Assembly (NCBI GenBank): GCA_015272515.1
Contig: JACYLN010000064.1
Location: forward strand, 1 to 64,000
Source of the DNA: Leptolyngbyaceae cyanobacterium C42_A2020_001
GTDB lineage: Bacteria > Cyanobacteriota > Cyanobacteriia > Leptolyngbyales > Leptolyngbyaceae
Length of the DNA: 64,000 nucleotides
Direction of reading: 5' to 3'
The position numbers and the translations under genes are program-made. The notes below the pieces were generated by a model. The model searched no databases. It saw only the letters and a program-made list of their open reading frames with translations, and was not told the origin of the DNA. Below are positions 79-53,524 of this stretch, piece by piece (position 1 is the first letter of the stretch; each line of letters opens with the position of its first letter).

Positions 79-536
79 GTATGAGTACTTAAGACGTGAT
101 TTACTCTGAGTTACCTTGAGCTTTCCAGGTGACCAAGCACGGAGACACCCAAAGTATGAGTAGAGTTTACGTTTCTTTACTGATTAACAATTATACGGGG
201 CATATCCTGAAATTTCCAGGGAATTTCTTAACTTAATTCCTTTCTTTTGCAACCTAAATTTATCGAGTTCTCAGCAATATCCTTTCTATTTCTTAAGACC
301 CTGCAAGCCTGACTGGGTCTAAGCTCCACACAAAGCGCTCGATAACTGCAAGTTTGGAATTCTTTAAGAGAGTAGTTGTTGATAAACAAACGTTAAGTAC
401 TAATACTCACAAAATTATGGAAACACATTAAATTTATCCATAAGGCTAGATTTTAGTGCGTTTGTAGATTGCTTACTGAAGCTCCAAAGGGTTTCGCAGG
501 TAAGGTTCAGCATTGAGACAGGCATTTAGCTGCTGA
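79..536. other. Intergenic stretch, no gene seen
   Basis: This AT-rich stretch lies beyond the 3' end of the minus-strand peptide-export cluster. I see no long reading frame with a ribosome binding site, no RNA gene and no strong hairpin with a T-run. The cluster may end here without a recognisable intrinsic terminator. Confidence 0.4.
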
Positions 537-1268
537 TTAACTGCTCAAGAGATAGTTCAGTTCTGTTGCTAACCACTCGTTAAACATCCGATTCAAGATC
601 TCCTGGTACCGTTCAGGCGTTAGTTCAGCAGGAATAGACTCTTCAACTAGCAATAGATGGCATGATTGGTCAATCACCAGTGGACCGATGAGATTTCCAG
701 GTGGGGAACCAAATACGATCGCAGATAAGTCTGGCTTCAGGTTCCAGCGGTAAAATCTCCCTTCATAGCCACAGTTGCAGCGTCGTTGCCCATCAATGTC
801 GTAAATGTGAGCGGCTTCATAAAAGCTGACCTCGCCTTCCTGAATTTCGTAAAAAATCTCTTGCGCCAGTTTCTCGTAAGGCACGACGAGCCGATAGAGT
901 GAAACCTGGTCAAAATCAGCTTGATGTTCAGCAAAGTATTTTTTAGCTTCATTGGCAAACAGGGATTGAGCCAGTTTTTCAGCCAAGAGGCGATCGCGAA
1001 TCCCGGTTTCCCATTCCTCGGCTGTAATGAGCTGATCAGTTAGCCACGCAAACGTGTCACTCGCGCGAAACAATCGATGCTCATACCGCTGTTGATCCGC
1101 GACAGCTTGAATTTCCTCAGGAGTAATGCTAATGCCTCGTTCTTCAACCGCCCGATTAATAATGCGTTGATAAATAATTTTTTGACAGATTTCCTTGATC
1201 TGTATGTTCTTCTTGAGAGTAGAAATAACTTCTTCTGATTCAATATTTCCACCTTTGAAAATAATCAT
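537..1268 (-). CDS. Parvulin/SurA-like peptidyl-prolyl isomerase of the export cluster
   Basis: The 243-residue product looks like a SurA-type protein. A helical N-terminal part (about 1-105) contains the run ISITPEEIQAVADQQRYEHR. A parvulin-like part follows (about 110-215), with FYEAAHIYDIDG, a Gly/Cys patch (CNCGYEGRF) and the terminal pattern PPGNLIGPLVIDQSCHLLLV. Parvulins catalyse cis-trans isomerisation of prolyl bonds or act as chaperones. There is no signal peptide, so it should work in the cytoplasm, unlike classical periplasmic SurA. The start ATG has a GAGGTGG binding site. It is the last gene of the minus-strand cluster, after the precursor peptides. By inference it could hold exported peptides or exporter parts in a competent fold. 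The family call is fairly safe; the role is not shown by sequence. Confidence 0.75.
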   Translation of the reverse strand: MIIFKGGNIESEEVISTLKKNIQIKEICQKIIYQRIINRAVEERGISITPEEIQAVADQQRYEHRLFRASDTFAWLTDQLITAEEWETGIRDRLLAEKLAQSLFANEAKKYFAEHQADFDQVSLYRLVVPYEKLAQEIFYEIQEGEVSFYEAAHIYDIDGQRRCNCGYEGRFYRWNLKPDLSAIVFGSPPGNLIGPLVIDQSCHLLLVEESIPAELTPERYQEILNRMFNEWLATELNYLLSS

Positions 1269-1423
1269 AGTGCACCACCTCTAGAATCGCATTCAATACA
1301 AGGTGAGAAGAAATTACACAGATGTAAGCCTTGTCTGCATTCAAATCTGTAGTTCTTCTTGAGAAAATTTTTAGTTTTCGACTTGGACGTACTTTAGATG
1401 CCATCTCTTACACTAAGCTAGCA

Positions 1424-1448
1424 GCCAGACTCCAATTTGGAGACTGGC
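1424..1448 (-). terminator. Intercistronic hairpin after the Ser-rich protein gene
   Basis: This 25-nt inverted repeat (GCCAG-A-CTCCAA on one side, TTGGAG-A-CTGGC on the other, one A-A mismatch) is a very stable stem. It lies between the stop of the gene at 1506-1934 and the start of the isomerase gene. No T-run follows on the minus strand, so it may be a processing or stability hairpin rather than a true terminator. Confidence 0.45.
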
Positions 1449-1505
1449 AAATATTGATCCAAGGCTAAAGCGTAAGTTCAGCACATCACCTACTCAACTA
1501 GCAGC

Positions 1506-1934
1506 CTAAAGTTCAGTGCTTGTCGCCTGATTCTCAGTTGAAAACGTGTAGTAAGCAATGTTCACAGGGCTTTGCATCAAAGACTCCGGGTTCATTTGAA
1601 CATAAACGGTTTCAACGCCTGAATTGAACAACCATCCATTATGTACATTTGAGTTAAGAATTGCCTGTTCTGGCATAAATAATGATCCATTCAAAAAGCT
1701 TGGCGACATCAATGAATGACTAACCATTCCAAACTCACCAGCCGGATCAAGGTGAATTGAATAATCCATTGAACTACTTGATTGTGAGACTTGCGAACCA
1801 GTTAAATATGGATCATTTAATCTGACTAACAGGGCGGAATGTAGCGCATTAGCTTGAGAATATAACCCCGATGTATGGATAGAACTTGAGTCAGTTGTTG
1901 TAAACGGAACAGGAAGATCAATCTCAGAAAACAT
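1506..1934 (-). CDS. Unrecognised Ser/Thr-rich protein in the peptide-export cluster
   Basis: I do not recognise this 142-residue protein. The start chosen is the ATG at 1934 (MFSEIDLPVPFTTTDSSS), which has an AAGAAGG binding site; the frame extends 17 codons upstream without one. The protein has no Cys, no signal peptide, no transmembrane segment and no double-glycine site. It is rich in Ser, Asn and Thr with scattered hydrophobic beta-like stretches (GVETVYVQMNPESLMQSPV). It sits between the leader peptides and the isomerase, with the same strand and spacing as the cargo genes, so it may be cargo with another signal, an immunity factor or an accessory protein. None of these is shown. Confidence 0.6.
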   Translation of the reverse strand: MFSEIDLPVPFTTTDSSSIHTSGLYSQANALHSALLVRLNDPYLTGSQVSQSSSSMDYSIHLDPAGEFGMVSHSLMSPSFLNGSLFMPEQAILNSNVHNGWLFNSGVETVYVQMNPESLMQSPVNIAYYTFSTENQATSTEL

Positions 1935-1999
1935 TGTGAACCTTCTTTTGTGCAAAAACACAACTAGAGAGTGGATAGAAATCAAACAATATCAATCTG

Positions 2000-2029
2000 A
2001 AAAATGCTTGAACCAGTAGCAAGAAGCAT
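2000..2029 (-). terminator. Weak terminator-like hairpin after the fourth leader peptide gene
   Basis: On the minus strand ATGCTT and AAGCAT (2024-2029 and 2004-2009) form a 6-bp stem with a 14-nt loop followed by ATTTTTC, directly after the stop codon of the gene at 2030-2338. It could attenuate transcription into the next gene. Confidence 0.4.
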
Positions 2030-2338
2030 CTAGAAGCTAAAAGGGAAGCCTGAAAAGAAACCAGAGCCTCTGCGAGAATAAGAGCCTCCAAATAAACTGG
2101 CTCCATAACCATTCATGGCAATCAAAACCGGCATAAAGATATTCATTGAAACTGCCGTATTGCCAATTGAAGTTCCTCCCAAGTTGATCACAGAGGCAGA
2201 AGAGGCAGGATAAAGACTTAATGATTGGAAAAAGGATTGAAAAATGTAGGGAAAAAGGTTGCTATTTTTTGATTTTCCCTCTCCTAAAACTGTTGAATCA
2301 TACTCCTCTTCCAAATACTCGATATCAGAAATAATCAT
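2030..2338 (-). CDS. Secreted-peptide precursor with variant GEG cleavage site
   Basis: The 102-residue product starts MIISDIEYLEEEYDSTVLGE, clearly related to the leaders of the three neighbouring precursors (MxIS-x-L/I-x-Y-x-E). It has Gly-Glu-Gly where they have Gly-Gly. The rest is longer than in its neighbours, hydrophobic, and ends in a Gly/Phe/Ser-rich tail (SLFGGSYSRRGSGFFSGF). There is no Cys. A GAAGGAG binding site precedes the ATG. It is probably another substrate of the neighbouring C39 exporter, but the altered site may change or block cleavage. A second possible GG lies inside the chain (NLGGTS). Gene call fairly safe; role inferred. Confidence 0.65.
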   Translation of the reverse strand: MIISDIEYLEEEYDSTVLGEGKSKNSNLFPYIFQSFFQSLSLYPASSASVINLGGTSIGNTAVSMNIFMPVLIAMNGYGASLFGGSYSRRGSGFFSGFPFSF

Positions 2339-2368
2339 TGATTAGCTCCTTCGTTGCAACTAATTTGA

Positions 2369-2414
2369 TGCCCCTGCTAAAGTTCATAAATTTAACTTTT
2401 CCTTAACAGGGGCA
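2369..2414 (-). terminator. Intercistronic inverted repeat between precursor genes
   Basis: Perfect 8-bp arms TGCCCCTG (2369-2376) and CAGGGGCA (2407-2414) enclose 30 nt. Partly matching bases inside the arms (TTAAG against CTTTA on the minus strand) can lengthen the stem. No T-run follows. It lies between the second duplicated precursor gene and the GEG-type precursor gene and may set relative transcript levels. Confidence 0.4.
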
Positions 2415-2466
2415 ATGATTACACTCTTACAACTTTACTCCTCACAGAGTTTGAGTGTGTTGTTAA

Positions 2467-2685
2467 CTACAGACCCAATACAATCAACGATGCACTGAGG
2501 CTATTGATATCCAGTTGAGCGGCACCATTTGCTGAGTAGCTACCTCCTGGACCGGCAGCAGTTACCGTATAGAAGGTCGAGAAATCATAGGTGTAGTTGC
2601 TAAGACTAGCTCCCAAATCAATTCCACCTTCCAGGTTGGTTGCTTCAACAGCGGTTTCTTGATAGTTGAGTTCAGAGATAATCAT
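2467..2685 (-). CDS. Double-glycine leader precursor peptide (copy 2 of a tandem pair)
   Basis: A 72-residue precursor. The ATG at 2685 is preceded by AAAGGAG; a longer in-frame start 13 codons upstream has no such support. The leader (1-21) begins MIISELNYQETAVEA and ends NLEGG, with acidic/hydrophobic positions at -8, -7 and -4 as in C39-processed double-glycine leaders. The 51-residue core has no Cys or His and contains TAAGPGGSYSANGAAQ, then a hydrophobic end (SLSASLIVLGL). It is nearly a copy of the gene at 2766-2984. The core cannot form lanthionine or disulfide rings. It is most likely a bacteriocin-like or signalling peptide exported unmodified by the neighbouring exporter; the activity is unknown. 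Confidence 0.75.
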   Translation of the reverse strand: MIISELNYQETAVEATNLEGGIDLGASLSNYTYDFSTFYTVTAAGPGGSYSANGAAQLDINSLSASLIVLGL

Positions 2686-2765
2686 GGTTGACTCCTTTGA
2701 GATGTGTGATTGAAACATGAACAATGGTCGTTTAGACCCAATACAAACTACAGACCAAACGTAAA

Positions 2766-2984
2766 CTACAGACCCAAGGCGATTAGGGATGCACCAAGAC
2801 TGCTGATATCAATTTGGGTTGCAACATTTGCCGAATAGGTTCCGCCTGGACCTGTTGCTGAAACTGTTCCAAATTGTTGCAAGCTGTAATCCCAAGTGCT
2901 GAGACTAGCTCCCAGGTCGATTCCACCTTCTAAGTTGGCTGCTTCAACAGCCGTTTCTTGGTAATTTAGTTCAGAGATAATCAT
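2766..2984 (-). CDS. Double-glycine leader precursor peptide (copy 1 of a tandem pair)
   Basis: A 72-residue precursor starting at the ATG at 2984, with GAAGGAG upstream. The frame continues 26 codons further up, but that part is not shared by the paralogues. The leader ends NLEGG at residue 21. The core contains SATGPGGTYSANVATQIDIS and the same hydrophobic end as its twin (SLGASLIALGL). Leader and start region are almost identical at DNA level to 2467-2685, while the middle of the core differs (TWDYSLQQF against NYTYDFSTF). This is the pattern of a recent duplication with variation in the exported part. Confidence 0.75.
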   Translation of the reverse strand: MIISELNYQETAVEAANLEGGIDLGASLSTWDYSLQQFGTVSATGPGGTYSANVATQIDISSLGASLIALGL

Positions 2985-3023
2985 GGTTGACTCCTTCAAG
3001 CAGATATTGATTAATAAACGAAG

Positions 3024-3050
3024 AATGAAAGTGCTCATATTGCTTTCATT
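3024..3050 (-). terminator. Intercistronic hairpin between the first two precursor genes
   Basis: Perfect 8-bp arms AATGAAAG (3024-3031) and CTTTCATT (3043-3050) with an 11-nt loop lie between the genes at 3112-3333 and 2766-2984. No T-run follows on the minus strand, so mRNA stabilisation or processing is as likely as termination. Confidence 0.4.
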
Positions 3051-3111
3051 ACTCGTGCTCATTCAAAAACTGATCAAGATGCACCATTTCAACAAGTCAG
3101 ACAGGCGATCG

Positions 3112-3333
3112 CTAAGGATTTCCTAAATTGAGGAATGCTGCACCAAAGGTTTCTATGATTGACTGCAACCCTGTTGTGCCTGCATAGCTACCAGTAGGTC
3201 CGGAGAAGGATACCGTCTGAATTTGAGATAGCTTCTGGATAAAAGACGAGAGAGTAGCTCCAAAATTATTTCCACCTTCTAAGTTGTCTATTTCAACAGC
3301 ATCTTCCAGGTAATTCAGGTTAGAAATATTCAC
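3112..3333 (-). CDS. Double-glycine leader precursor peptide, divergent member
   Basis: A 73-residue precursor with a GTG start at 3333 directly behind a very strong AAAGGAGGAG binding site. The leader (1-21) reads MNISNLNYLEDAVEI and ends NLEGG, closely matching the leaders of the tandem pair. The core (52 residues) shares the spaced motif SFSGPTGSYAG but is otherwise diverged and ends FGAAFLNLGNP. There is no Cys. It is the first precursor gene after the HetP-like gene in the direction of transcription. It is probably a substrate of the neighbouring C39 exporter, cut after the second Gly. Confidence 0.72.
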   Translation of the reverse strand: MNISNLNYLEDAVEIDNLEGGNNFGATLSSFIQKLSQIQTVSFSGPTGSYAGTTGLQSIIETFGAAFLNLGNP

Positions 3334-3772
3334 TTCTCCTCCTTTGCAATCTGCACTTTTCTATTTCAAATTAGCTTTATCTGAGCTGTTATCTAAACTG
3401 TATACGCTTATATTCTGAATTGGGTTGTTTTTTGCATTTTATGTTGCCACTTTGGCGGGGAGATTTTCTAATAGAATCTTCTAAAATTAGCCAAAAAAAT
3501 AAGCAGCATAAATTACATGCATCTCAATTTTGCGACATGATTATCTTGCTTACGGGTGAGGTACCCGCACTACAAAGAATAATCTGTAAAACTCAGATGC
3601 ATTCCACGAATTGACTTATTTTATTGGTAGGATGATCTAGCTAATGTAGGACACATTAAAGGTATTTCAATTGCGTAACGTCCTAAACTAATGCAAATCA
3701 CGTAGAGTATGTTAAGTGTCGCGCTAACGAACTATTAATCGATACACAAACGTTTTGGAAAGGATTGCCTAA
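3334..3772. other. Gap between HetP-like gene and precursor genes
   Basis: About 440 bases, AT-rich. A 64-codon plus-strand frame here has no binding site and no protein-like composition. The stretch probably holds the promoter of the precursor genes. I found no exact GTA-N8-TAC site and no strong terminator. A small 5-bp stem CGGGT/ACCCG occurs near 3555. Confidence 0.4.
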
Positions 3773-4231
3773 CTAGTTGAATAACGATTTTTTGAGACAT
3801 TGCCAATCAAACAGATTGTAATGGGGGGAGGTTTCAGTCCATTGTGGGAGATTACCCCCCAAAAGTTCGTTTTCCTGAAAGTCAATTATTTCTAAATCTC
3901 GTAACTCATGAACTGAAGCTAAGTGATTAGATGAGGTGCAATCGCCTGTTTCTCCCACAACTAATTCTTGATCAGGGGAAAGTTGTTTGCTGGACTTTGT
4001 TGGGTTGGTAGATGGTTCTGCGATCGTGTTCAGGAGACGATTTTCTTTGACTAAACGGCTGTAAGTGCGGTAGGGAATAAAGTACACCGGATTGTATCCG
4101 GCAAATCGCAAAATTAACACACACGCCCAGGAATAGCGCCCGTCTGTAATCGCCTGAACCACCTGGTTAAACTGTTCAGGACTCATTACTTTGTTGCGTT
4201 TTTCTGGGGTATTACTTCTGTGAAAGTTCAT
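3773..4231 (-). CDS. HetP-family protein with a Gly-Gly motif near the C-terminus
   Basis: The 152-residue product carries the HetP domain at about residues 14-66: the runs VMSPEQFNQVVQAITDGRYS, WACVLILRFAGYNPVYFIPY and RTYSRLVKEN are characteristic of HetP, a regulator of commitment to heterocyst formation in Nostoc that has several homologues. Non-heterocystous cyanobacteria also have HetP-like proteins. The ATG has an AGAGGA site and starts 33 bp after the HlyD gene stop, so the two are probably cotranscribed. After a variable linker comes RDLEIIDFQENELLGG (Gly-Gly at about 125-126) and a 26-residue tail. That stretch resembles a double-glycine leader end, a suggestive feature given the C39 exporter next door. 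Family assignment is firm; biochemical role unknown. Confidence 0.85.
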   Translation of the reverse strand: MNFHRSNTPEKRNKVMSPEQFNQVVQAITDGRYSWACVLILRFAGYNPVYFIPYRTYSRLVKENRLLNTIAEPSTNPTKSSKQLSPDQELVVGETGDCTSSNHLASVHELRDLEIIDFQENELLGGNLPQWTETSPHYNLFDWQCLKKSLFN

Positions 4232-4264
4232 AGGAATCCTCTTTTTTTGGGGGCTAATGCTGGT

Positions 4265-5854
4265 TTACAAGCTCAAGTTACTGTCTTGCAACTTGCGGAT
4301 TGGATCGAGCAACACATCGGCAATGCGGCGGCGACGCGTGACGATTTCTGCAGTTGCCGTTTGACCCGCTTTCAACGCAATCAGTTGCTGATTTTTGGTG
4401 AGAGAACTGCGGTCTAGGGCAATTTCTACCCGATAAACGGCTCCTAACCGTTCATCAGATTTGATATCAGGAGAAATTGAGAGCACCTTTCCCGAAATGA
4501 TTCCGTAATCTTGATAGGGATAGGCATCAAACTTAACCTGGACGGGATCACCTGCTTTTACAAAACCCGCTTCTCGCGTAGGTAGAGCAGCCGTCAACAC
4601 CAGGGGCGCACCCGCCGGAGCAATTTCGGCGATCGCGTGCCCTGCCTGCGCCACATCCCCATTTCTCCGCACGTTCAGTGTAGAGATCACTCCATCTGTT
4701 AGTGCTTTCAGCGTTAATTGTTCCAGCTCTGTTCTGGCTTGCTGAAACTGCTTGAAATTCTGCTGAATTTTTGCCTGAAGTTGGGTTTTTTGTACCAACA
4801 ATTGCTGCACTTTTTGCTGCGATCGCAGTTGAGCATCCTGAGCCTCGGCATCTTTGCGAACTCGTTCAGCCTGGAGACGATTGAATTCAGCATAAACCTG
4901 CTCCAGATCTGCCCGTAATCGCTTGGCTTCTGCCAAAGATTGCTGAATGTCTCCCAACTGTTGCGTGACGCTACGCTGCCGATCTGCCAACTGCTGCTGT
5001 GCCTGAAACAACTGCTCACGGGCAAGCGCGCCCTCGTTCACCAGGTACTCAAACCGGGAGAGCCGTTCCTGTTGGGTAGCGGCGTTAGCCTGCAACTGAT
5101 TCAGCAACATTCGACTGGTTGCAGTGCGATCTTCGGTTTGCAAGATTGCAGCTTTTTGGCTGGCAATTCTGGCTTGCACCTGGGCAATGGCGGCAGTTTG
5201 GGCGCGACTTTCGGCATGAGCGATCGCCCGCTGCGTTTGCGCCTCCAGTCGAGTTTTGTCAATTAGCGACTCGACTTGCAACAGTTCTTGTTTGTAGTTG
5301 ACGTGTGCCTGCACCGACCACTCCACCCGGTTGCGGGCAATTTCATCGTCCAGTTTGGCAATCACCTGCCCTGCTTTCACCATCTGGCTTTCTTGCACAT
5401 ATACCTGGGCAACCTTGCCAGAAACCACTGGATTGACCTTATAGGTTTCGCCCTGCGGAATCAGCCGCCCTTGCGCCCGCCCCACTTCATCAATTTGACC
5501 AACCGCCGCCCAGGTAGCAAACGCCGCACAAAACAGGACGCTGCTGGCAAGCAACTGGTTGGGCAGTTTTGCTGGAGGTCGATCCAGCACGGTTTGTAAA
5601 GAATTTGACCAGTTGACCGGAGTGGTTACGATCGCCGAAGGCGCAGAACTGGCGCTTTGGGGTACATTTCCAGGTGGAGGCATCACCGCAACAGAAGCGC
5701 TGGTACCACCATAAATGGAGGCAATTTCTGGAGTAATATCTGGCTCACAATGCCACTGAGAACCGTGAGCATACAAAAACAGCGTTTCAGATTCGGGCGG
5801 GGCAACAGAGTGATTTGGATAATCGGGGAACAACGACTCAATACGAATAGACAT
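4265..5854 (-). CDS. HlyD-family membrane-fusion (adaptor) protein
   Basis: The 529-residue protein has a cytoplasmic N-terminus of about 95 residues, one membrane segment (LLASSVLFCAAFATWAAVG, about 100-118), a lipoyl-like half (KVNPVVSGKVAQVYVQESQM), a long Gln-rich coiled coil (about 170-375), the returning lipoyl half (TLKALTDGVISTLNVRRNGD) and a beta-barrel end. This is the layout of type I secretion adaptors that link an inner-membrane ABC exporter to an outer-membrane channel such as TolC. It lies downstream of the HetC-like exporter on the same strand and upstream of the HetP-like gene. No TolC-like gene is in the window, so an outer-membrane channel elsewhere would be needed. The start is not supported by a clear binding site. 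Confidence 0.88.
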   Translation of the reverse strand: MSIRIESLFPDYPNHSVAPPESETLFLYAHGSQWHCEPDITPEIASIYGGTSASVAVMPPPGNVPQSASSAPSAIVTTPVNWSNSLQTVLDRPPAKLPNQLLASSVLFCAAFATWAAVGQIDEVGRAQGRLIPQGETYKVNPVVSGKVAQVYVQESQMVKAGQVIAKLDDEIARNRVEWSVQAHVNYKQELLQVESLIDKTRLEAQTQRAIAHAESRAQTAAIAQVQARIASQKAAILQTEDRTATSRMLLNQLQANAATQQERLSRFEYLVNEGALAREQLFQAQQQLADRQRSVTQQLGDIQQSLAEAKRLRADLEQVYAEFNRLQAERVRKDAEAQDAQLRSQQKVQQLLVQKTQLQAKIQQNFKQFQQARTELEQLTLKALTDGVISTLNVRRNGDVAQAGHAIAEIAPAGAPLVLTAALPTREAGFVKAGDPVQVKFDAYPYQDYGIISGKVLSISPDIKSDERLGAVYRVEIALDRSSLTKNQQLIALKAGQTATAEIVTRRRRIADVLLDPIRKLQDSNLSL

Positions 5855-5920
5855 GGCAGTGCTCTAACACGAAGTAGGGAACAGATCGGCAGAGCAGCCC
5901 TGATTGGAATTATTTTGTGA

Positions 5921-6032
5921 ACAATCAAATCTTAAAGAAATGGCTTTAGAGTGCCCTTTTCAAGAAGCACTCAAATAAAGCCTGTTACGCTTCGCCAACC
6001 CATCCTACAATTGCTTGTCAAGATTTGATTGT
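5921..6032. repeat. Inverted-repeat element, possible MITE
   Basis: Perfect 13-bp terminal inverted repeats ACAATCAAATCTT (5921-5933) and AAGATTTGATTGT (6020-6032) bound a 112-bp unit. Inside is a second nested inverted pair (GAGTGC/GCACTC) and the string TTACGCTTCGCCAACCCATC, of a type I recall from many cyanobacterial intergenic repeats. No target-site duplication is evident. It lies in the 370-bp gap between exporter and adaptor genes and would form a long hairpin in the transcript, so it may also affect cotranscription. Confidence 0.5.
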
Positions 6033-6224
6033 CTTACAGTGATTGATGCAAGTATTTGATAAGCGATTGAACTAAGTGAAATAAAGACAGGGACTTCCCT
6101 GGTTACTGGTGAGGAGGATATCGAACTCTTTTGGGAATCAGTTTCATTTTTATCATATCTAACCTTTATTCAATTCATCGTTATGGGTGCCAATTTGGCA
6201 GACTTCTTTCTACACAAACAGAAA

Positions 6225-9200
6225 CTAAATATCAATCTGTTGCTGAACTAATTGAGCATACAATCCTTGTTTTTCCATTAGTTGCTCATGATTGCCCTGC
6301 TCCGTAATTACGCCCCGATCAAGCACTAAAATGCGATCGCTGTTTCGCACAGTTGCCAACCGATGGGCAATGATAAACGTGGTACGGCTGTGGCGAATGT
6401 GCTGCAAATTCTTTTGAAATCGCCGTTCCGACTCAGTATCAAGGGAACTGGTCGCTTCGTCCAAAATCAAAATGCGCGGGTCGCTGAGCAGGGCACGGGC
6501 GATCGCAATTCGCTGGCGTTGTCCACCGGACAGGGTCGATCCCCGTTCACCCACTTTGGTGTAGTAACCCAGCGGCAAATTTTGGATGAACGGATGCGCT
6601 TCTGCCAGTTTTGCCACCTCAATCACGGCATCCAGACTGTATTCCGGGCGATACAGGGTAATGTTGTCCAAAATTGTGCCAGAAAACAAAAAGCATTCCT
6701 GCGGCACCACGCCCAACTGTTGTCGCAAGGATGGCGGTGAGACATGGCGCAAATCGTGCCCGTCGATTGTAATTCGCCCAGTCGTGGGGTAATACAAGCC
6801 TTGCAACAGGTTAATCAGCGTAGTTTTGCCAGAGCCACTGCGCCCCACCACGGCGATCGTTTCTCCGGCCTGGACGGTAAACGAGATGTTTTGCAAAATA
6901 TTGCGATCGTCGTCTGGGTTGTAGCGAAACGTTACATTCTCAAAACAAACCATGCCCTGAATCGGTGGCAACGTCAGCATTGGCTGATCGGGGCGTTCTT
7001 CCGGTGGCGTATTGAAAATATCTTCCAACCGTTCCACCGATACCATCACCTCTTGCAGTTCATCCCATAACCCCACTAGCGCCAGCATGGGACCAATGAC
7101 GCTGCCAATCATCATGTTGAACGCTACCAACTGCCCAATACTAAGCTGGTCTTGAATCACCAGGGTTGCGCCGTACCAAAGCAGTGCCGTTGTACCGATG
7201 GTGTTAATCAGTCCACCCATTCCCTGCAATCCATTTGCTAACTTTTGCCCGCGAAACTGGGCATTAAATTGGCTGGTTAAATGGTCTTCCCACTGCCAGC
7301 GCACATCTCGCTCAGCGGCGGCGGTTTTCACGGTGGCAATCCCGGTCAACATTTCCACCAGGGCAGAGTTTTGTTTCGCCGCTTCATGAAAAACCTGCCG
7401 TGACACTCGACGCAGAAACGGACTGGCGATCGCGGTTAGTAGAATAATCGGCGGCAGCAACCCCAGAATCAAAAAGGTCAGGCGCTGATTGTAATACAGC
7501 ATCAACCCCACATAAGCGACTGCCATCAAAGCATCAATCCCCGTGGTAATTGCCTGTCGGGTGAGAAACAGTTGAATCTTTTGGTTTTCTTGCACCCGCG
7601 TCACAATATCGCCCACGTGTCGCGCCGCAAAGAACTGCAACGGCAGATTCAGGGTGTGGCTGATGAACCCGCTAATCAGGGTTAGATCCACCTGGTTTGA
7701 GAAATAATCCAGCAGGTATTGCCGCACACTCACTGTGCCCACGCGCCAGATACCCGCCAGCAGCAAGCCAATGATGAAAATGTGTAGCGTCATCAGGCTT
7801 TTATGCACCACCACCTGATCCAGAATGATTTGGGTAAACAATGGTGTGACCAAGCCCAGTATCTGAAGCAGTAGCGATGCCAGCAGAATCGGCACCAGCA
7901 TGGAGCGATAGGGCGAAAATGCCCCCAAAAATCGTCCCAAAGATAGCTTGGAGGATGGCATTGCCTGCAATAGCTCGGTGGGGGTGAGCAGCAGCGCGTA
8001 GCCCGTCCAGCTTGCCTGAAATTCTGCAATGGTGAGCGATCGCTTCCCCAGGGCTGGATCGGCTACAATCACCTGATTGCGCCGTACTCGATACACGACT
8101 ACGTAATGATCTCCCTGCCAGTGAGCAATCCACGGAGTTGTTTGTTCTGCCAAGCGGCTAAAGCTAGATTTTACTGGACGCACAAGAAAACCTAGACTTT
8201 CTGCTGCCTTTGCCAAACCCTTAAGGGAAGCTCCCGTTCGTCCCACCCCTGCCAACCCGCGCAGCATATTTAAGCTCAACCGTTTGCCCCAATATTGGGC
8301 AACCATTGCCAAACAAGTTGCTCCGCAGTCTGAACTGCTTTGCTGCTGGAGAAAGGGGTACCCCTGCCAAAACCATCGTCGTCGCCACTGTCGCGATCGC
8401 GGCTTGGCAAAGGTGATCGGTGCGGGTTCTGCCGGAGTTGGTAGTGATCTTGCCGCAGCACTAGGAATGGAGATAGTGGGCGATCGCAGCGCAGGTCGAG
8501 CAGCAGGCGGTTGAGCAGCAGAAACCTGGGGCAGAGATCCAGATTGGATAGGAGTGGGGGGATTGACTGATTGATTCCCCAATGGTGGGATAGTTACCTG
8601 TGCCATTTCCCAATGCTCGTGAGACAGTTGATATACCTGCAAATCGGTGGCTGTCACCCAGTCAGCAGGAATAGCAGCCGGATAGCCCCAAGCATCGCCA
8701 ATCGCAGGCGGTGAACTGTTCTGCCCCTGAATTTGCCCATTTCGCAGCCAATAGTGCCCACTGTCTGAAGGCGTTGCGTCTGCCAGCACAGTTCCGGGGG
8801 GCAGGTGAATTTCGTGCAGGTAGGGAAGCAGGCGTTTGAGTTGATGGCTGGACCACGATCGCAGGTCGGTTAAAGCTTTGAAGAAAATGAGTTGTTGTCG
8901 TGTCGTCGTCGCGTTTTGCAGGTTCGCCTGTAATTCGGGCACCTGTTGCAACCAGCGATGTAATTTTGCTCCTGGCATAACTGCCACCAACCCCCCACTG
9001 GCCGCGATCGCATGGTAGGGCAAAGGGGACGCATAAAATTGCTCATCTGCTCCCCAGGTTTCTCCAGCTTCCAATAATGCAACGGATGCCGCTTGCTGTT
9101 GGGCGGTAGCGTGGCTCAGCAGCCGCACTCGTCCCTGACAAATGATGTAAAGGTTGCGATTGAGGGAAGCCAACTCTACCTCGCGATCGCCCTTGAAAGA

Positions 9201-9371
9201 TTCCCTTAGGTCGTCTCCCAATTGAACCACCTGAAACGTACAAGCTTGACTAAACTGAACCAGCCATTCACGTCCAGTTGGGAATAAACTCAACAGCAGT
9301 TCAGTTAAAAGCTCATTCGCATTAGACGGTACCGGAAGATCATTTCTTCCAGTTTCTACGACCCATTTCAT
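6225..9371 (-). CDS. hetC: HetC-like peptidase C39/ABC exporter with cyclic-nucleotide-binding-like regions
   Basis: The 1048-residue protein has an N-terminal half with two cNMP-binding-like regions (about 30-170 and 180-270, for example NLYIICQGRVRLL), then a Pro/Ala linker. A C39 peptidase domain (about 335-465) has its catalytic Cys349 in SSDCGATC, His422 in GDHYVVVYRV and Asp in VADPALGKR. A six-helix ABC membrane domain and a nucleotide-binding domain follow, with Walker A GRSGSGKTT, signature LSGGQRQRIAIARALL and Walker B ILILDEATSSLD. This order and length match HetC of Nostoc, needed early in heterocyst differentiation and encoded beside hetP. C39 exporters cut leader peptides after Gly-Gly and export the rest. 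All catalytic residues seem present, so it should be active. Its likely substrates lie downstream. The symbol rests on architecture and the hetP neighbour; orthology is unproven. Confidence 0.85.
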   Translation of the reverse strand: MKWVVETGRNDLPVPSNANELLTELLLSLFPTGREWLVQFSQACTFQVVQLGDDLRESFKGDREVELASLNRNLYIICQGRVRLLSHATAQQQAASVALLEAGETWGADEQFYASPLPYHAIAASGGLVAVMPGAKLHRWLQQVPELQANLQNATTTRQQLIFFKALTDLRSWSSHQLKRLLPYLHEIHLPPGTVLADATPSDSGHYWLRNGQIQGQNSSPPAIGDAWGYPAAIPADWVTATDLQVYQLSHEHWEMAQVTIPPLGNQSVNPPTPIQSGSLPQVSAAQPPAARPALRSPTISIPSAAARSLPTPAEPAPITFAKPRSRQWRRRWFWQGYPFLQQQSSSDCGATCLAMVAQYWGKRLSLNMLRGLAGVGRTGASLKGLAKAAESLGFLVRPVKSSFSRLAEQTTPWIAHWQGDHYVVVYRVRRNQVIVADPALGKRSLTIAEFQASWTGYALLLTPTELLQAMPSSKLSLGRFLGAFSPYRSMLVPILLASLLLQILGLVTPLFTQIILDQVVVHKSLMTLHIFIIGLLLAGIWRVGTVSVRQYLLDYFSNQVDLTLISGFISHTLNLPLQFFAARHVGDIVTRVQENQKIQLFLTRQAITTGIDALMAVAYVGLMLYYNQRLTFLILGLLPPIILLTAIASPFLRRVSRQVFHEAAKQNSALVEMLTGIATVKTAAAERDVRWQWEDHLTSQFNAQFRGQKLANGLQGMGGLINTIGTTALLWYGATLVIQDQLSIGQLVAFNMMIGSVIGPMLALVGLWDELQEVMVSVERLEDIFNTPPEERPDQPMLTLPPIQGMVCFENVTFRYNPDDDRNILQNISFTVQAGETIAVVGRSGSGKTTLINLLQGLYYPTTGRITIDGHDLRHVSPPSLRQQLGVVPQECFLFSGTILDNITLYRPEYSLDAVIEVAKLAEAHPFIQNLPLGYYTKVGERGSTLSGGQRQRIAIARALLSDPRILILDEATSSLDTESERRFQKNLQHIRHSRTTFIIAHRLATVRNSDRILVLDRGVITEQGNHEQLMEKQGLYAQLVQQQIDI

Positions 9372-10043
9372 GGTTTATCACAGGGATACTGAAGTGGTTA
9401 TGAAGTGAGAAAGAACCACCTTTAGAAGGAAGTTTCTGCTACTAGAAAAATTAGTAGCGATCGACTGAGTAACTCTACGTCAAACAGTCATTTCATCAAC
9501 AACAGCCGTGCAGTGCATCAAGTAGTAGATAGTACTTAAACACTTGATTCATTGTAGATGAGATAAACGTTGGAAACCCATCACCCAAAAGGGGCACACT
9601 GCCATCTAAAGCGGCTTAAAAATCATCCTTTTCTACTACTTACAACAATTATCGATTGGTAGATGAGCCTTCACAAAATAGCTTTATCATTCAATCAGAG
9701 GTGCTGATTTAAGCGTTTTATCACGATTTTATCTGAATGGAAATCTTACTTTGATTCTATTCTCCGCTATCAGTAGTAACAACTTTATAAGCAGGGCTTC
9801 CGCCATAAATTCACAGATCTTTATTTCCAATCTGTTTGTTGTTTGAGATGTGTTCAAATTGTTACTTAAATTGGTATTGGTGAGATGGGGGTTGAAGCTA
9901 CTTCTGCCAGACGAAACCGGTTTTGACGATTTTGGGGATAAAAATTCTATTTGGCTTAAGATTAATATTCATTCATCCTGGTAGTTCTCCAGGTTTCCAT
10001 CCGTGCCTTTTAAAATCAAGACATATTCCTTCGCCTGTCAACT
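9372..10043. other. Divergent regulatory gap between exporter and PEP-synthase-like genes
   Basis: About 670 AT-rich bases separate two divergent genes. No small reading frame with a convincing binding site was found on either strand. The only notable structure is the palindrome at 9520-9537. Both genes must have promoters here, but I could not place -10 boxes with confidence. Confidence 0.5.
9520..9537. promoter_or_regulatory. NtcA-like palindrome AAGTA-N8-TACTT
   Basis: The bases AAGTA GTAGATAG TACTT contain an exact GTA-N8-TAC, the core of the consensus for NtcA, the global nitrogen regulator of cyanobacteria; the symmetry extends two bases further on each side. It lies about 150 bp upstream of the HetC-like start and 507 bp upstream of the divergent gene. 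hetC in Nostoc is known to be NtcA-dependent. A matching TAN3T -10 box about 22 bp downstream is not clear on either strand, and an exact core is expected by chance about once in 4 kb, so this is a candidate only. Confidence 0.4.
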
Positions 10044-12533
10044 GTGATTAACCTCTATTGGCTTGAGCAGATCCGCTCTACACATCGTGCCTCCGTAGGA
10101 TTGAAGGCATTGCATCTGAGCCATCTGCTACAGGAGGGATGTCCTGTAGTGCCAGGTTTTGTGGTGTCGGCGGAGACCCTCCGCGCGTTTCTAGAAACGA
10201 TCAACTGGGTAGAACCGTTTTTTACTGATCTGCCAGGCTCCTCGCTACATCTTGATATTGACAATCCTCAACAGTTGCAGGCGATCGCACGCCAACTGCG
10301 CCAGGCGATCGCAGCGGCACCCCTACCCGACTCTCTGTTGCAAGAGTTAGAGACTGCTGTAGCTCGGTTTCACCCGTCTCCCCTGATCTTGCGTGCGTCG
10401 CTGATTGTCAACTCCCGGACCCGCAACATCCCAGAGCCAATGTTATCGGATTTGGCGCTTGGTGGCTCTCGATTACTTACCAGTCAATTTTGCCCTTCTG
10501 ACGTGAGGGCACTAGCGCAGGGGTTGAAAAAACTATGGGGGGAGCTATTTGGCGCAAAAACCTTATTTTACTGGCAACGATATAACGTTCCAATTCAGCA
10601 AATTGGGCTTGGAGTGTTAGTGCAACTGGTACAGCCAGCGATCGCGTCGGGCATCGTTCGCACAACAGACAGCCATTTTGAAATTTACTCCACGATTGGG
10701 CTGGGCATGGCAATCTCGCGTGGGGAAGTGATTCCAGATTATGACCAGATCGACGCTGCAACTAACAGTGTTCAAACCCGCCAGCTTGGACAAAAAAGCA
10801 TCGCCTACCGCCTCGTGGGTCAACTGTCCTCTGGTATGGAGGCTGAGTCTTATTCCTCTGAACCCTGCGAACCTCTGATTTTTCCAAACTGGCAGCCTTC
10901 TATTGGCGATACAACCATACTGCAATCAAACGCCGATTCCCCTAATCCATCGAGTTTGGTTGAGGCGTATCTTCTTTCTGAACCACAACGCAGCAGCTTT
11001 ACGCTGACGGAGACTACCATCCAAACCCTGATCCATCTGACGCGAACGGCGTTGGCTTCTAGCAGGATCCCTTTAGAACTGGAATGGATCCTCTTACCAG
11101 AATCGAGGCACCCACCCAGGCTATATCTGACTCAAGCCAATCCTCAACCACCACCCACCCGTAACGTTGCCCTTCCAGTGATCAACAAGCGTGCTCATCG
11201 ACCAGTGGAAATCTTTCCGGGTGCAGTGCTGATTGCAACGGGGTTGTCGGTTGCATCAGGTCAGGCGATCGCCCGTGCCAGTGTCGTTACCGATATTCAT
11301 ACATTGCCAACCGATTTCTTACCTCATACGATTTTGGTCACGCCAACGGTTCCGCTCGATTGGTTGCCCCTGATTGAGCAATCCGCTGCGTTGGTGTCAG
11401 AGTACGGTAGCATGACTAGCCATAGCGCCATTATTGCTCGAGAGATCGGTATTCCCGCGGTGACGGGCGTTCCGGCAATTACAGCACAAATTCAACCTGG
11501 AGAATTACTGTGGGTTGATGGCGATCGCGGCAAAATTTACCGTCTCAATCAAGCGCCTGCAAGTTCTCCGACGATGTGGCACGATGCTCCTTTTTTACCC
11601 TCCCAGCCTCTGGACTCCGCCCCTTCACATATACCGCTCGTCACAGGGTTGATGGTGAATCTTAGCCAGCCCAATCAAGTGTTGAAAGCTGCCCATCTTC
11701 CCATCACAGGGGTGGGCTTGTTGCGAGCAGAACTGCTGGCACTGACCGCTCTCGACAATCAACACCCGCGACTGTGGCTAGAGCAAAATCGTAAGCATGA
11801 ATTTGTTGAACGCATGATCAGCGCGATCGCGCGGTTTGCCGAAGCATTTGATCCGCGTCCCGTGTTTTACCGCTCCTTTGATTTTCGCCCCCACGAGTTC
11901 CAAAATTTGCACCTTACCTCGCCCTTAACAACTGCCCATTCGACCCTGGGAATGCGAGGGACATTCAGTTATATGCAGAATGCAACTCTGTTCAAACTGG
12001 AACTCGCCTACCTTGCAACCCTACAACAGGCAGGGCACACCAATATTCATTTGATCTTGCCGTTTGTTCGTACAGTAGAAGAATTTTTGTTTTGTCGCCG
12101 CCTGGTAGAGCAAGCAGGGTTGACACGCCTTGCCGATTTTCAACTGTGGATAATGGCAGAAGTGCCTTCAGTGCTGTTATTGCTGCCAGACTACGTGAGC
12201 GCTGGAGTACAGGGTATCTCAATTGGCACCAATGACTTGACTCAACTACTGTTAGGAGCAGATCGAGATAGCGCTGAGTTGGCAGCCGTGTTTGAGGAAC
12301 GCCACCCTGCTGTGCAACGCGCGATCGCACATCTGATTCAGGAGGCTGGCAAACTGGGTATTCCGTGCTCAATTTGTGGGGAAGCTCCTGTGCGGTATCC
12401 AGAGATGATTATCGACCTTGTACGCTGGGGAATTCAGTCGATTTCGGTTGCCCCTGAAGCCGTCGAAACTACTTATTGGGAAATTGCCCGGGCTGAACAG
12501 ATGTTGTTGCTAGAATCTCTGCGATCGCCCTAA
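10044..12533 (+). CDS. PEP synthase-like PEP-utilising enzyme
   Basis: The 829-residue protein follows the PEP synthase plan. The N-terminal nucleotide-binding domain is poorly conserved (ASVGLKALHLSHLLQEGCPV; the usual Arg/Ser signature is changed). The swivelling phosphohistidine domain has His460 in GSMTSHSAIIAREIGIPAVT. The PEP/pyruvate barrel contains GVGLLRAELLAL, the DLTQ motif SIGTNDLTQLLLGADRD and catalytic Cys778 in CSICGEAP. PEP synthases interconvert pyruvate+ATP with PEP+AMP+Pi. Here the ATP-grasp part may be weak or altered, so a different phosphoryl donor or a non-canonical substrate is possible. It is divergent from the HetC-like operon across 670 bp and alone on its strand; a link to the export system is not shown. 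GC content and HIP1 sites look native. Confidence 0.75.
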   Translation: MINLYWLEQIRSTHRASVGLKALHLSHLLQEGCPVVPGFVVSAETLRAFLETINWVEPFFTDLPGSSLHLDIDNPQQLQAIARQLRQAIAAAPLPDSLLQELETAVARFHPSPLILRASLIVNSRTRNIPEPMLSDLALGGSRLLTSQFCPSDVRALAQGLKKLWGELFGAKTLFYWQRYNVPIQQIGLGVLVQLVQPAIASGIVRTTDSHFEIYSTIGLGMAISRGEVIPDYDQIDAATNSVQTRQLGQKSIAYRLVGQLSSGMEAESYSSEPCEPLIFPNWQPSIGDTTILQSNADSPNPSSLVEAYLLSEPQRSSFTLTETTIQTLIHLTRTALASSRIPLELEWILLPESRHPPRLYLTQANPQPPPTRNVALPVINKRAHRPVEIFPGAVLIATGLSVASGQAIARASVVTDIHTLPTDFLPHTILVTPTVPLDWLPLIEQSAALVSEYGSMTSHSAIIAREIGIPAVTGVPAITAQIQPGELLWVDGDRGKIYRLNQAPASSPTMWHDAPFLPSQPLDSAPSHIPLVTGLMVNLSQPNQVLKAAHLPITGVGLLRAELLALTALDNQHPRLWLEQNRKHEFVERMISAIARFAEAFDPRPVFYRSFDFRPHEFQNLHLTSPLTTAHSTLGMRGTFSYMQNATLFKLELAYLATLQQAGHTNIHLILPFVRTVEEFLFCRRLVEQAGLTRLADFQLWIMAEVPSVLLLLPDYVSAGVQGISIGTNDLTQLLLGADRDSAELAAVFEERHPAVQRAIAHLIQEAGKLGIPCSICGEAPVRYPEMIIDLVRWGIQSISVAPEAVETTYWEIARAEQMLLLESLRSP

Positions 12534-50584: not shown

Positions 50585-53524
50585 TCAGAACCCACAGGTT
50601 CCGGCAGCAACGTTGGTAATCACGCCAATATCTGCTTGGCGAGTGCCTGCATTTGCGGTGAATGGTTCCAACTGTAACGCAGTAGTTGCCAAGTTCTTTC
50701 TGAGTAAGTAACCAGAATTACTTGCGGTGTTATTTGAGAAGCGAACACAACCACTTGCAGTAGTAGAACCACCAAACACGCCGACTTGAGCTTTGAATTC
50801 AACGAGATCGCTAGCTACAAAAGGATTTGGATTGGTGACTCGATTGTTCGTCACGGAAGCAAATAATTGACTTGTGCCACCCGCTTCAACGGAGAGTCCT
50901 AACTGAAGTCCGCTTGCGTTAATGACATTGAAAATTTGGTTATTATCGATGAGCGTTCGCAACCGAGAATTGTTCAATGAAATTGCTAAAATCCCAATTC
51001 CAACGGCGTTGCTGATAGTATTGTTTGCGATAGTTGCAGAGGTTTGGCTATTGCCTGCCGAATTCAGTTGAATCCCCCAGAAACCAGTTTGAGGTAGGGT
51101 GTTATTTGCGATTCTAACTTGCAGCGGATTGGTGGCAGGTTGATTGATGTCTAAAAATATTCCCCGTGCATTGTTCGCAGCGGTTGTGATGGTGTTGTTT
51201 GAAATACTGAGGTCTGCGATCGCGCTAGTATTTTGAGGAATGACATAAATACCACTCGCGCCTACACCGCTCGTTGAAATTCTGTTGTCCGAGGCGGTCA
51301 TGGTTGTTATCACACCACTATTAATCGGAATGACATGAATGCCAAAACTATTGGCTCCACTAGTTGAAATAGTATTTCTCGATGTTGTCATGGTTGTAAT
51401 CGAGCCACTATTTCTGGGATTCACGATAATGCCGTAGGCATCACCTCCTGTTGTTGTGATGGTGTTATCCGAAACGATCGCGGTCTTAATTGAACTGGTA
51501 TCTCGCGGATTGACCGAAACACCATACGCAAAAGTATTACCAGTATTAATGGTGTTGTTAGCAAGTGTTACGGTATCAATCAAACTGGTGTTAAGTGAAA
51601 GTACCAAAATGCCCAAGCCGCTAGTGGCTGTAGTTTTAATCGTGTTGTTTGTAACTGTTGCATTTGCGATCGCTCCCGTATTCCGAGTCGTAACCGAAAC
51701 ACCATGTCCTGCACTTCCGCTAGTAGTGATAGTGTTATTGGTCAAAATCAAGTTTGGCAGTGTTGTGTTTGAAATGTCGGCAAAAATGCCAAAGGCTCCT
51801 GTTGGAAATACAACGGTAGCCCCTGCTGTAGACACCGTGTTATTGGTTGCGATTGCTGTACCAGATACATTTTGCAACCGAATTCCCGGTGTATCATTTC
51901 CAGTCGCTTGTACCTGATTATCCCGAATCGTTACATTCTGCACCCCATTCGCCACGATTGGCGTATTGCCAGTGGGAGGTGTTACGGCAAAGCCAGACAA
52001 CACAGTGTTATTGCCCATTGTCACAGTGTTCGTCACACTAGGTAGGGTTCCTGCGCCTGAGAGCGGTAATTGCACAGTGCCAAGTTGCACCGTTGCTAAG
52101 GTTTGCACAGGTCCGGTAGACAACACCTGAACATTATCTTTGACGGTGAAAGCTGGGATTCCTGGGTTAGTTCCTGGTTGTACATAAACAATGCCATTAC
52201 CATCTCCTGGAACGGCTGTCAGTGCCGCTGCGACCGTACCAAAAGGATTTTCAAAAGTGCCATTCCCTGCTGCATTGCCCAACACCACATGCTCAAACAC
52301 GTAGGGTTCCCCAGTCGTAGGATTGAGTGCTGCTTCAGCACTGGTGGTAATGTTGCTCGTGCTGGCGCTTGTGGTCATGCCAAAGCTACTGGTACGGGTA
52401 CGCTCCGTGATAGCAACGATATTGCTACGGCTGACGCTATCTCCCATCCGTACCCAGTTGGATGTTGATTCCGACGTGTGGACACGGCTCATACCTGGAA
52501 ACGTCAAACCTACCGTTACAGCGGCTGTGGTGCCAAATTCGCGATCGCTCTGCACAGAAAGCCCCACACTGGCATACTGATTAATCCGCGCAACCAAACG
52601 CCCGCGAACTCCAACAAAGCCGTTGATATTAGAACCAGAGTAGTGATACAAGCCCAGGTACGATCGCAAATCACCATCTGGCTTCCATTGCAACAGTTTT
52701 AACCCTGCTTCTAAATCAAACCCACCTAAAGCAACCTCATCCCTACTGCGATTGAATTGGGTCGTATTAGTAATGACAGTAGTGTTTGTGGTTTGAGCGA
52801 TGTCGAATAGAAGATTATTGCCTTGAAATCGAAATGCTCCTGTTGGGGTAGAACTTCTATTTGTAGTGGTAGTGCTGGTGGAACTGGAAAAGTTTTGGCT
52901 GTCTACCGTTTGACGAGTACTGCCTACAGGTAAGTAGCCATTCAATCGCACCTCAAACCCAGACCAGATACCTTCTACTCCTGCACCGAGTTGGCTAAAA
53001 GTTGCTCTACCAGTGTCTCGCACATCAAAACCCACGTATCCGCCTAAGATGGAGTTTTGAGCAGGGTTGAAGCGACGATAGCCTACCACTACATTCCCAC
53101 CGGTTTTACCTTCAGTTGATAGAAGCAAACGACCTTGCAGATAAGCCAGATCTTTGCCAGGTGTTTGAGCTAGAGGAACAAATCCATCAATTCCTAAAAA
53201 GGATGGCTCATACCCGCTTCCAGAACCACTCGTGAAGGTGCCGTTAATCTGTTCTGGGATTCGAGGAAAGGCAGAAGGAGTAGCCGCAGCAGGGGTGGGG
53301 AATGTGGGGAGTTCAGGGGAAGATTCAGAAGGCGTTTGTGTGAGGATTTCGGTGGAAGCGATGCCAGCATCCTTGAGCGTTTTGGGAGGTGCGGAGTCGT
53401 TGTATGTTGCAGAAGTTTCTGGTTCCGAGGCGTTAGCAGGGGGTTGCTCAATGTAAAGTGCCACAACTGCTAGCAGACAAACCAGGGGGAAGTTTGCCAG
53501 AAGATACTGAATGGTTTTCCTCAC
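50585..53524 (-). CDS. Inverse-autotransporter-like barrel with C-terminal beta-helix
   Basis: The 979-residue surface protein has a signal peptide (YLLANFPLVCLLAVVALYIE), a Pro/Ser linker, and a barrel-like domain (about 115-350) with YLQGRLLLSTEGKTGGNVVV, GGYVGFDVRDTGRATFSQLG and FEVRLNGYLPVGSTR, as in inverse autotransporter barrels. Then comes a right-handed beta-helix (about 430-950). At least seven consecutive units of 30 residues begin with NNTI, DNTI or RNTI plus TTSG-like Ser/Thr and contain GI/GV-x-V-x-P-x-N. The end has two Cys (ASGCVRF and GTCGF) that may close the helix. Probably exported passenger exposed on the outer membrane; binding partner unknown. The Thr/Asn-rich repeats suggest slippage-prone DNA. 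Confidence 0.8.
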   Translation of the reverse strand: MRKTIQYLLANFPLVCLLAVVALYIEQPPANASEPETSATYNDSAPPKTLKDAGIASTEILTQTPSESSPELPTFPTPAAATPSAFPRIPEQINGTFTSGSGSGYEPSFLGIDGFVPLAQTPGKDLAYLQGRLLLSTEGKTGGNVVVGYRRFNPAQNSILGGYVGFDVRDTGRATFSQLGAGVEGIWSGFEVRLNGYLPVGSTRQTVDSQNFSSSTSTTTTNRSSTPTGAFRFQGNNLLFDIAQTTNTTVITNTTQFNRSRDEVALGGFDLEAGLKLLQWKPDGDLRSYLGLYHYSGSNINGFVGVRGRLVARINQYASVGLSVQSDREFGTTAAVTVGLTFPGMSRVHTSESTSNWVRMGDSVSRSNIVAITERTRTSSFGMTTSASTSNITTSAEAALNPTTGEPYVFEHVVLGNAAGNGTFENPFGTVAAALTAVPGDGNGIVYVQPGTNPGIPAFTVKDNVQVLSTGPVQTLATVQLGTVQLPLSGAGTLPSVTNTVTMGNNTVLSGFAVTPPTGNTPIVANGVQNVTIRDNQVQATGNDTPGIRLQNVSGTAIATNNTVSTAGATVVFPTGAFGIFADISNTTLPNLILTNNTITTSGSAGHGVSVTTRNTGAIANATVTNNTIKTTATSGLGILVLSLNTSLIDTVTLANNTINTGNTFAYGVSVNPRDTSSIKTAIVSDNTITTTGGDAYGIIVNPRNSGSITTMTTSRNTISTSGANSFGIHVIPINSGVITTMTASDNRISTSGVGASGIYVIPQNTSAIADLSISNNTITTAANNARGIFLDINQPATNPLQVRIANNTLPQTGFWGIQLNSAGNSQTSATIANNTISNAVGIGILAISLNNSRLRTLIDNNQIFNVINASGLQLGLSVEAGGTSQLFASVTNNRVTNPNPFVASDLVEFKAQVGVFGGSTTASGCVRFSNNTASNSGYLLRKNLATTALQLEPFTANAGTRQADIGVITNVAAGTCGF

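Follow-up and report, generated by a model that had tools for sequence, protein, structure and literature searches.

The window analysed here is a stretch of 64,000 nucleotides (nt) from the Leptolyngbyaceae cyanobacterium C42_A2020_001 (contig JACYLN010000064.1). Its positions 537-9371 hold a peptide-export locus in which a peptidase-containing ATP-binding cassette (ABC) transporter (PCAT) is encoded together with a HetP-like protein and small peptides with double-glycine (GG) leaders. In the family of the HetP-like protein the tail resembles such a leader, which makes HetP a candidate substrate of the exporter HetC in heterocyst-forming cyanobacteria. As the first-pass annotation had proposed, all genes of the locus lie on the minus strand. 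Read 5' to 3' in the direction of transcription, they encode the C39 peptidase-ABC exporter, an HlyD protein, the HetP-like protein, three GG peptides, a peptide with a GEG leader end, a serine-rich open reading frame (ORF) and a parvulin (Table 1). All ORFs are present at the positions proposed; that of the serine-rich protein has its start corrected to the first ATG.

Table 1. Features of the locus at 537-9371 of the window
Feature	Position	Strand	Evidence
PCAT exporter, long type (N-terminal cNMP-like domain, C39 peptidase, transmembrane domain, ATPase)	6225..9371	-	Pfam, catalytic residues, tree
HlyD-type membrane fusion protein	4265..5854	-	PF13437 72.8 bits; TIGR01843 203.5 bits, slightly below cut-off 208.65
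HetP-like protein of 152 aa; three helices, all within residues 18-70, form a domain ahead of a disordered tail	3773..4231	-	NF037966, AlphaFold2
Leader-like segment VHELRDLEIIDFQENELLGG (HetP residues 107-126) and 26-residue tail after GG	3776..3913	-	Sequence; position fits family motif
GG-leader peptide 3, GTG start, leader NISNLNYLEDAVEIDNLEGG after start codon, 52-aa core	3112..3333	-	NF038167 29.9 bits; leader profile
GG-leader peptide 2, 51-aa core	2766..2984	-	NF038167 15.0 bits; leader DNA shares 89% identity with that of peptide 1
GG-leader peptide 1, 51-aa core	2467..2685	-	NF038167 25.2 bits
GEG peptide, 102 aa, leader MIISDIEYLEEEYDSTVLGEG	2030..2338	-	Sequence; weak leader-profile match, 5.2 bits
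Serine-rich ORF, 142 aa from first ATG	1506..1934	-	No relatives among ORFs of loci L001-L063 (only itself found)
Parvulin/SurA-like peptidyl-prolyl isomerase	537..1268	-	PF00639 (PPIC rotamase) 24.5 bits, above cut-off 21.7

The exporter combines a C39 domain (141.7 bits) with ABC membrane and ABC_tran domains and begins with a match to a cyclic nucleotide monophosphate (cNMP)-type domain that, at 26.5 bits, falls slightly below the cut-off of 27.5. The catalytic triad of the peptidase is complete (Cys349, His422 and Asp438), in agreement with the earlier suggestion that leader cleavage is plausible, and the ATPase displays Walker A, LSGGQ and Walker B motifs. A C39 domain with Cys, His and Asp fused to a transmembrane domain (TMD) and an ATPase is the architecture of a PCAT, and it is plausible from these features that the protein would cut and export peptides with GG leaders. 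Its relatives of solved structure, by sequence, are 4ry2, 6v9z, 8vp3 and 8hf4, and its nearest relative is an exporter of Phormidesmis priestleyi (80% identity). The HetP-like protein scores 108.6 bits against NF037966 (cut-off 45). AlphaFold2 predicted a domain of three helices with high confidence, followed by a disordered tail, so a leader located in the tail should be exposed. A Foldseek search with the HetP domain gave nothing at E≤0.001, and no sequence relatives were found in the PDB at E≤1.

None of the three GG peptides reaches the cut-off of 32 for the CTB family bacteriocin model NF038167; "CTB bacteriocin" is a database label, and the peptides may serve in killing, signalling or biofilm formation. 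The genes for peptides 1 and 2 are tandem copies, because within 2462-2996 a 100-nt stretch covering the leader and ribosome-binding region is 89% identical between them and a second repeat of 107 nt, across the rest of the genes, is 72% identical. The parvulin scores 69.7 bits against the peptide maturation isomerase model TIGR04500, below its cut-off of 180. A scan of 10 proteins at 537-12533 revealed no recognisable modification genes; promoters and terminators sought at 300-10100 showed no excess over shuffled sequences, so operon limits are not fixed by such signals, and Rfam gave no match at the gathering threshold. Elsewhere in the window, a 979-aa ORF with a GTG start (50585-53524) has no Pfam match at E≤1e-8. 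The source genome amounts to 5.55 Mb in 149 contigs and encodes no other HetP, and its best match to NifH reaches 220.7 bits, below the family cut-off of 394; with a single HetP and no NifH above cut-off, a heterocyst role is unlikely in this organism.

With its long-type C39 ABC exporter, HlyD, SurA-type rotamase and GG precursors, the locus has the components that define the cyanobacterial bacteriocin clusters of groups I and II. Nothing sets it apart from other clusters of this type, whose layout, including HetP as a frequent neighbour, was described in 2011 (Wang et al, 2011; PMC3140520); the company of HetP with bacteriocin-like cargo, on which the first-pass annotation had remarked, has been in print since then. 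The expectation that the gene order is not confined to the window held. An exporter search yielded 62 further loci (L002-L063; 61 titled cyanobacteria and one metagenome-assembled genome titled Gracilibacteria), of which 52 contain HetP, and 40 of the 53 HetP-bearing loci (window counted) have at least one small ORF with this type of leader. In a sample of the phylum, HetP was present in 64 of 386 genomes, and the 24 HetP regions from that sample lying outside the family termed f7 (L104-L127) encode HlyD in 23 cases and the exporter and the parvulin in 21 each. These co-occurrence counts indicate that the gene order is not due to chance and that the arrangement is widespread. At L006, L018 and L025, HetP immediately follows the exporter with a degenerate motif (QGANVP, PGMNV and QGINVP, respectively), while HlyD and the parvulin lie upstream of the exporter.

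The central observation concerns the HetP tail. A profile was built solely from 67 distinct HetP tails, picked by a motif pattern that matched 74 of 147 HetP ORFs (one false match, in L107, was removed), and searched against the 47,671 non-HetP ORFs of the loci. A leader match was defined as one at the N-terminus of a small ORF (≤175 aa) with a Met within 8 residues. By this measure the tail profile retrieved the leaders of cargo peptides almost exclusively: 42 of 43 matches at E≤0.1, 82 of 85 at E≤1 and 99 of 110 at E≤10, counts that include duplicates because several loci represent the same genome twice (e.g. L104/L013, L105/L056, L109/L014 and L110/L045). Seventy of the 82 leader ORFs found at E≤1 share the strand of HetP and follow it at a distance of no more than 9 kb. 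When the columns of the profile were shuffled, ten such versions matched 0-3 ORFs, none of them leaders. A reverse profile made from the leaders, which is not independent since the tail profile had found them, matched 71 of 167 HetP ORFs at E≤10, every time in the C-terminal half, and among these was the heterocyst-type HetP of L100 (E 6.5e-4). As judged from sequence, HetP thus ends in what reads as a second, internal cargo leader with a "core" behind it. The segment in the window agrees with the motif in spacing; the case for this copy rests on its relative in L002, INELAYLETIEPPENAPHGGSLPAW, compared with ...GGNLPQW in the window.

Presence of the motif follows the genomic neighbourhood. 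After de-duplication by sequence across all loci, HetP kept the motif in 75 of 92 cases near an HetC or operon-type PCAT or HlyD, versus 3 of 65 near neither; split by neighbour, the counts were 17/25 with the exporter only, 53/62 with exporter and HlyD, and 5/5 with HlyD only. The pattern misses L045, which has a GG motif, and L017, which ends at a contig end, was counted as lacking it; L147 and L148 were entered as having a different kind of PCAT nearby. All four were left so. In the exporter-less f7 regions L143, L149, L140 and L163, HetP paralogues either do not extend past the leader, stopping at it or ahead of it (..VLSKIN, ..RKINDLDYL), or no longer have GG; these may form a stepwise decay series of a HetP that was presumably of the operon type.

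A tree of 122 exporters, made with a short search and a simple model and with some long branches flagged, placed 16 heterocyst-type HetC proteins in one clade (support 99). The window exporter falls outside it, within a clade of 73 entries representing the PCAT-HlyD-HetP operons (support 96), and the two clades are joined as sisters at 100. The earlier idea that the hetC-hetP pair derives from, or also works as, a peptide-secretion module is therefore borne out as far as the relation goes, whereas its corollary that the window exporter is itself a HetC is not; the HlyD gene between exporter and hetP in the window likewise departs from the HetC arrangement. Outside both clades (100) falls a further group, made up of 26 f7 exporters with HlyD. 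Because HlyD accompanies both the operon clade and this outer group, the most economical account would be that it was lost along the line leading to HetC.

An operon-type parvulin (at least 340 bits) is near in 11 of 18 hetC-hetP loci, lying at 6 kb in L142. HetP reads GG in 16 of the 18. No other small ORF with this leader was found in the 18 loci at E≤1; small ORFs were also listed by eye in 12 of them and in 5 further HetP loci. A sole leader lying inside hetP would account for the lack of a leader-bearing gene near hetC in the 2024 HetC study (PMC10986499). PatC (asr2819) was considered as a relict cargo gene and is unsupported, given the lack of a small leader ORF near hetP in these loci, in which PatC itself was not identified. 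In several loci a second f7 exporter-HlyD-parvulin cluster, from a separate clade of the tree, adjoins hetC-hetP, and at L098:13498-19899 and L129:342-6584 such a cluster adjoins a short convergent HetP paralogue. A small ORF with a KIKDLDY...MEKIQGG leader (L174:13245-13505), several kb past a second f7 cluster, is a possible cargo of that cluster.

Family f7, which we infer from its named members among the loci (Nostoc, Calothrix and the like) to comprise the heterocyst formers, allows the HetP cut site to be compared between genomes with and without HetC. HetC-level matches at E≤1e-235 occur in 87 of 205 f7 genomes, a count that includes operon-type matches and misses G438. Scoring was carried out for 107 f7 genomes, with G438 taken as HetC-bearing, as were G199 and G418, which have open hetC frames of 1017 and 1062 codons, and G514, G425 and G463, which have partial HetC matches. 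Among the 29 genomes that lack HetC by threshold search, the DNA around hetP was inspected in 19; the assignment rests on the search alone for G403, G406, G407, G408, G410, G475, G481, G488, G491 and G505, the last having a 787-bit PCAT match and its HetP on different contigs. HetC state changes at least 14 times on the tree of the 107 HetP genes, and HetC seems to have been lost repeatedly in the family.

GG is present in HetP in 44 of 49 genomes with HetC versus 11 of 57 without it (the HetC-less G428 could not be scored for GG), and GG followed by a core of at least 20 residues in 43/49 versus 6/57. The corresponding figures for tail length are 46/49 and 15/58, and for a control segment just before the cut site 47/49 and 44/58. 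Near relatives are not independent, and pairs were therefore counted on a tree of the HetP gene minus the motif. This gave 7.4 pairs for and 0.0 against for GG plus core (median p 0.016, range 0.008-0.031), 5.7 for and 0.0 against for tail length (p 0.031, range 0.016-0.125), and 2.5 versus 1.6 for the control segment (p 1). The case rests on the cut site and core together, and the cut site by itself is no more than suggestive. A smaller tree test with 46 genomes gave 4 pairs (p 0.25) and was underpowered. Remnants of hetC lie beside hetP in 8 of the 11 HetC-less genomes that retain GG (G036, G068, G167, G400, G466, G469, G498 and G517) and in 5 of 14 inspected HetC-less genomes without it (G409, G447, G459, G464 and G471); this contrast, although small, fits a decay of GG after the loss of HetC.

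The likeness between HetP tail and cargo leader, the dependence of the motif on an exporter and the sister relation of HetC are computational observations; recognition, cleavage and export of the tail, and a regulatory role for it, are what we infer from them. A C39 domain holds its substrate by a helical leader and cleaves behind GG. According to the model that we favour, the window would encode a type I peptide-export operon in a cyanobacterium without recognisable nitrogenase, in which the PCAT works with HlyD and an outer-membrane channel presumably encoded elsewhere. Small precursors would be recognised through the leader I-x-D/E-L-x-Y-x-E...GG and cut after GG, and their cores exported. 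The HetP-like protein would be a two-part substrate composed of the N-terminal helical HetP domain, an internal leader copy and a short core: the C39 domain would bind the leader and cut after GG, so that the C-terminal piece (26 residues expected in the window) is exported and the HetP domain stays in the cell, thereby reporting the state of secretion to a cytoplasmic regulator. A leader inside the protein need not prevent this, because the LahT C39 domain cuts GG leaders in substrates that are tagged with maltose-binding protein or N-terminally truncated (PMC6363468). In heterocyst formers, the hetC-hetP pair would have arisen from such a module after the loss of HlyD and the cargo genes, which would make HetP the best candidate for the substrate of HetC. 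There the piece after GG measures 36 residues in 24 of 46 HetC-bearing genomes (range 4-43; scoring before G199 and G418 were reassigned).

On this evidence we consider it fairly probable that HetC-HetP descends from a peptide-export module with HetP itself a substrate. The more specific proposal, that HetC cleaves HetP behind its internal GG, retains the HetP domain in the differentiating cell and exports a signal of about 36 residues, in a use inherited from non-heterocystous secretion operons, is possible but more doubtful. Published genetics agree with a line from HetC to HetP: moderate over-expression of hetP, with its transcript at 3-4 times the parental level (a HetP-GFP strain), lets a hetC peptidase mutant differentiate again (PMC4133259).

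Several observations weigh against the proposal that HetP is a substrate. The HetP motif of the window itself is divergent, scoring about 0 bits with both leader profiles, and the GG motif is absent from ten operon-type HetPs beside an exporter (L004, L006, L009, L018, L025, L030, L040, L061, L106, which reads GS, and L121). Five f7 genomes with an open HetC frame or match lack GG, reading GR in G300, G449 and G451 (one genus), GA in G424 and GS in G199. On the tree, GG alone gave 5.7 pairs for and 1.0 against (median p 0.125, up from 0.07 before G199 and G418 were scored as HetC-bearing, a change that left GG plus core at 0.016), and without G514, G425 and G463 its p value rises to 0.29, with GG plus core at 0.016 and tail length at 0.0625. 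Three traits and one control were tried in this test, and when the tree is ignored the control segment, too, differs with HetC (Fisher 0.005). As many f7 genomes lack HetC altogether, processing cannot be universally required, and the upstream half of the leader may have another role because it persists in most HetC-less genomes. Lastly, HetP with GFP fused at its C-terminus shows the same localisation whether the HetC peptidase is there or missing, a result that does not point to cleavage (PMC4133259). As a separate observation on G199 (L154:4563-7613 and 8759-9274), the TAG reported by the genome search falls outside its open hetC frame, and G251 of the same genus has both hetC and GG.

Some of these points would suit a different relation, in which the HetP tail binds the C39 domain as a leader does and remains uncut. 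HetP would then act as a sensor or gate of the exporter and come off once cargo is plentiful. The part of the leader before GG outlives HetC (44 of 58 HetC-less genomes), the HetP-GFP signal is visible at the cell poles whether or not the HetC peptidase is present (PMC4133259), and some HetPs beside HetC read GR, GS or GA. What is tracked on the tree, however, is the cut site and the piece that follows it, which docking alone does not need, and we judge this explanation unlikely, though it deserves attention. Stripped of any bond with the exporter, HetP might instead be a neighbouring regulator whose tail has converged on a short acidic-hydrophobic motif. The motif is indeed short and its copy in the window weak, homologues of HetP take part in the control of commitment in Nostoc (PMC9045159), and short HetP paralogues of the loci, which may be the same genes as the Nostoc homologues, lack the tail. 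Against convergence stand the selectivity of the profile search, in which shuffled controls retrieved no leaders, the split of the adjacency counts and the loss of cut site and core along with HetC; we hold it to be improbable, and the first-pass picture of HetP as a bystander gives way to one in which HetP itself appears to bear a leader. The 2011 proposal, that the HetP-like protein is a plain bacteriocin precursor cut by another peptidase, ascribed its motif KIxDLxYLEx10GG to the M16 peptidase of group II clusters (PMC3140520). The scan of 10 proteins at 537-12533 found no M16 family, the motif is the same as that in the leaders encoded beside the C39 exporter, and, GG aside, the conserved columns of HetP lie mostly within its N-terminal domain (59 sequences, chosen mostly with GG), unlike in a bare leader. 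This makes an M16 precursor very improbable.

If HetP is a substrate, a regulator would carry a secretion leader midway along its chain and so link cell fate with export, and a peptide-secretion operon would be the evolutionary source of part of a bacterial developmental pathway. It would also provide a reason why over-expressed HetP bypasses the hetC peptidase mutant, and would fix both the cut site and the fragment to look for, so that the substrate of HetC could be assayed simply in vitro. The findings give sequence and evolutionary grounds for singling out hetP, the gene right after hetC. The leader embedded in HetP, its likeness to cargo leaders and the tie to HetC are new, in that no earlier report was found in the open-licence literature.

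The C39-TMD-nucleotide-binding domain architecture of the window exporter is shared with PCAT1/ComA and the LahT peptidase group. Solved PCAT-type chains have about 720-750 residues, without a long N-terminal extension, and the leaders of their substrates are N-terminal. Group I/II clusters share with the locus a long-type C39 ABC protein bearing a CAP_ED domain, HlyD, a SurA rotamase, GG precursors and a HetP neighbour; they were interpreted differently, with HetP as a precursor and its motif assigned to M16, and the sections cited do not equate this motif with the cargo leaders (PMC3140520). The term "hetc" is absent from the main text of that paper. PteB of Synechococcus elongatus is likewise a C39 exporter with a set of small secreted GG proteins, EbfG1-4, whose cleavage after GG/GA is supported by mass spectrometry and which can serve biofilm formation; the sections on which we draw mention no HetP partner (PMC4997328). 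HetC of Nostoc PCC 7120 shares with the window the order of a cNMP, C39 and ABC exporter followed by HetP (PMC10986499; PMC4133259), and its peptidase is active and needed, with the substrate given as unknown in the 2024 study, which asks whether PatS, HetN or HetP peptides are exported by HetC and, in the sections cited, names no leader in HetP (PMC10986499). It differs from the window in having no HlyD directly between the two genes and no small leader cargo found, and HetC belongs to the sister clade of the operon exporters.

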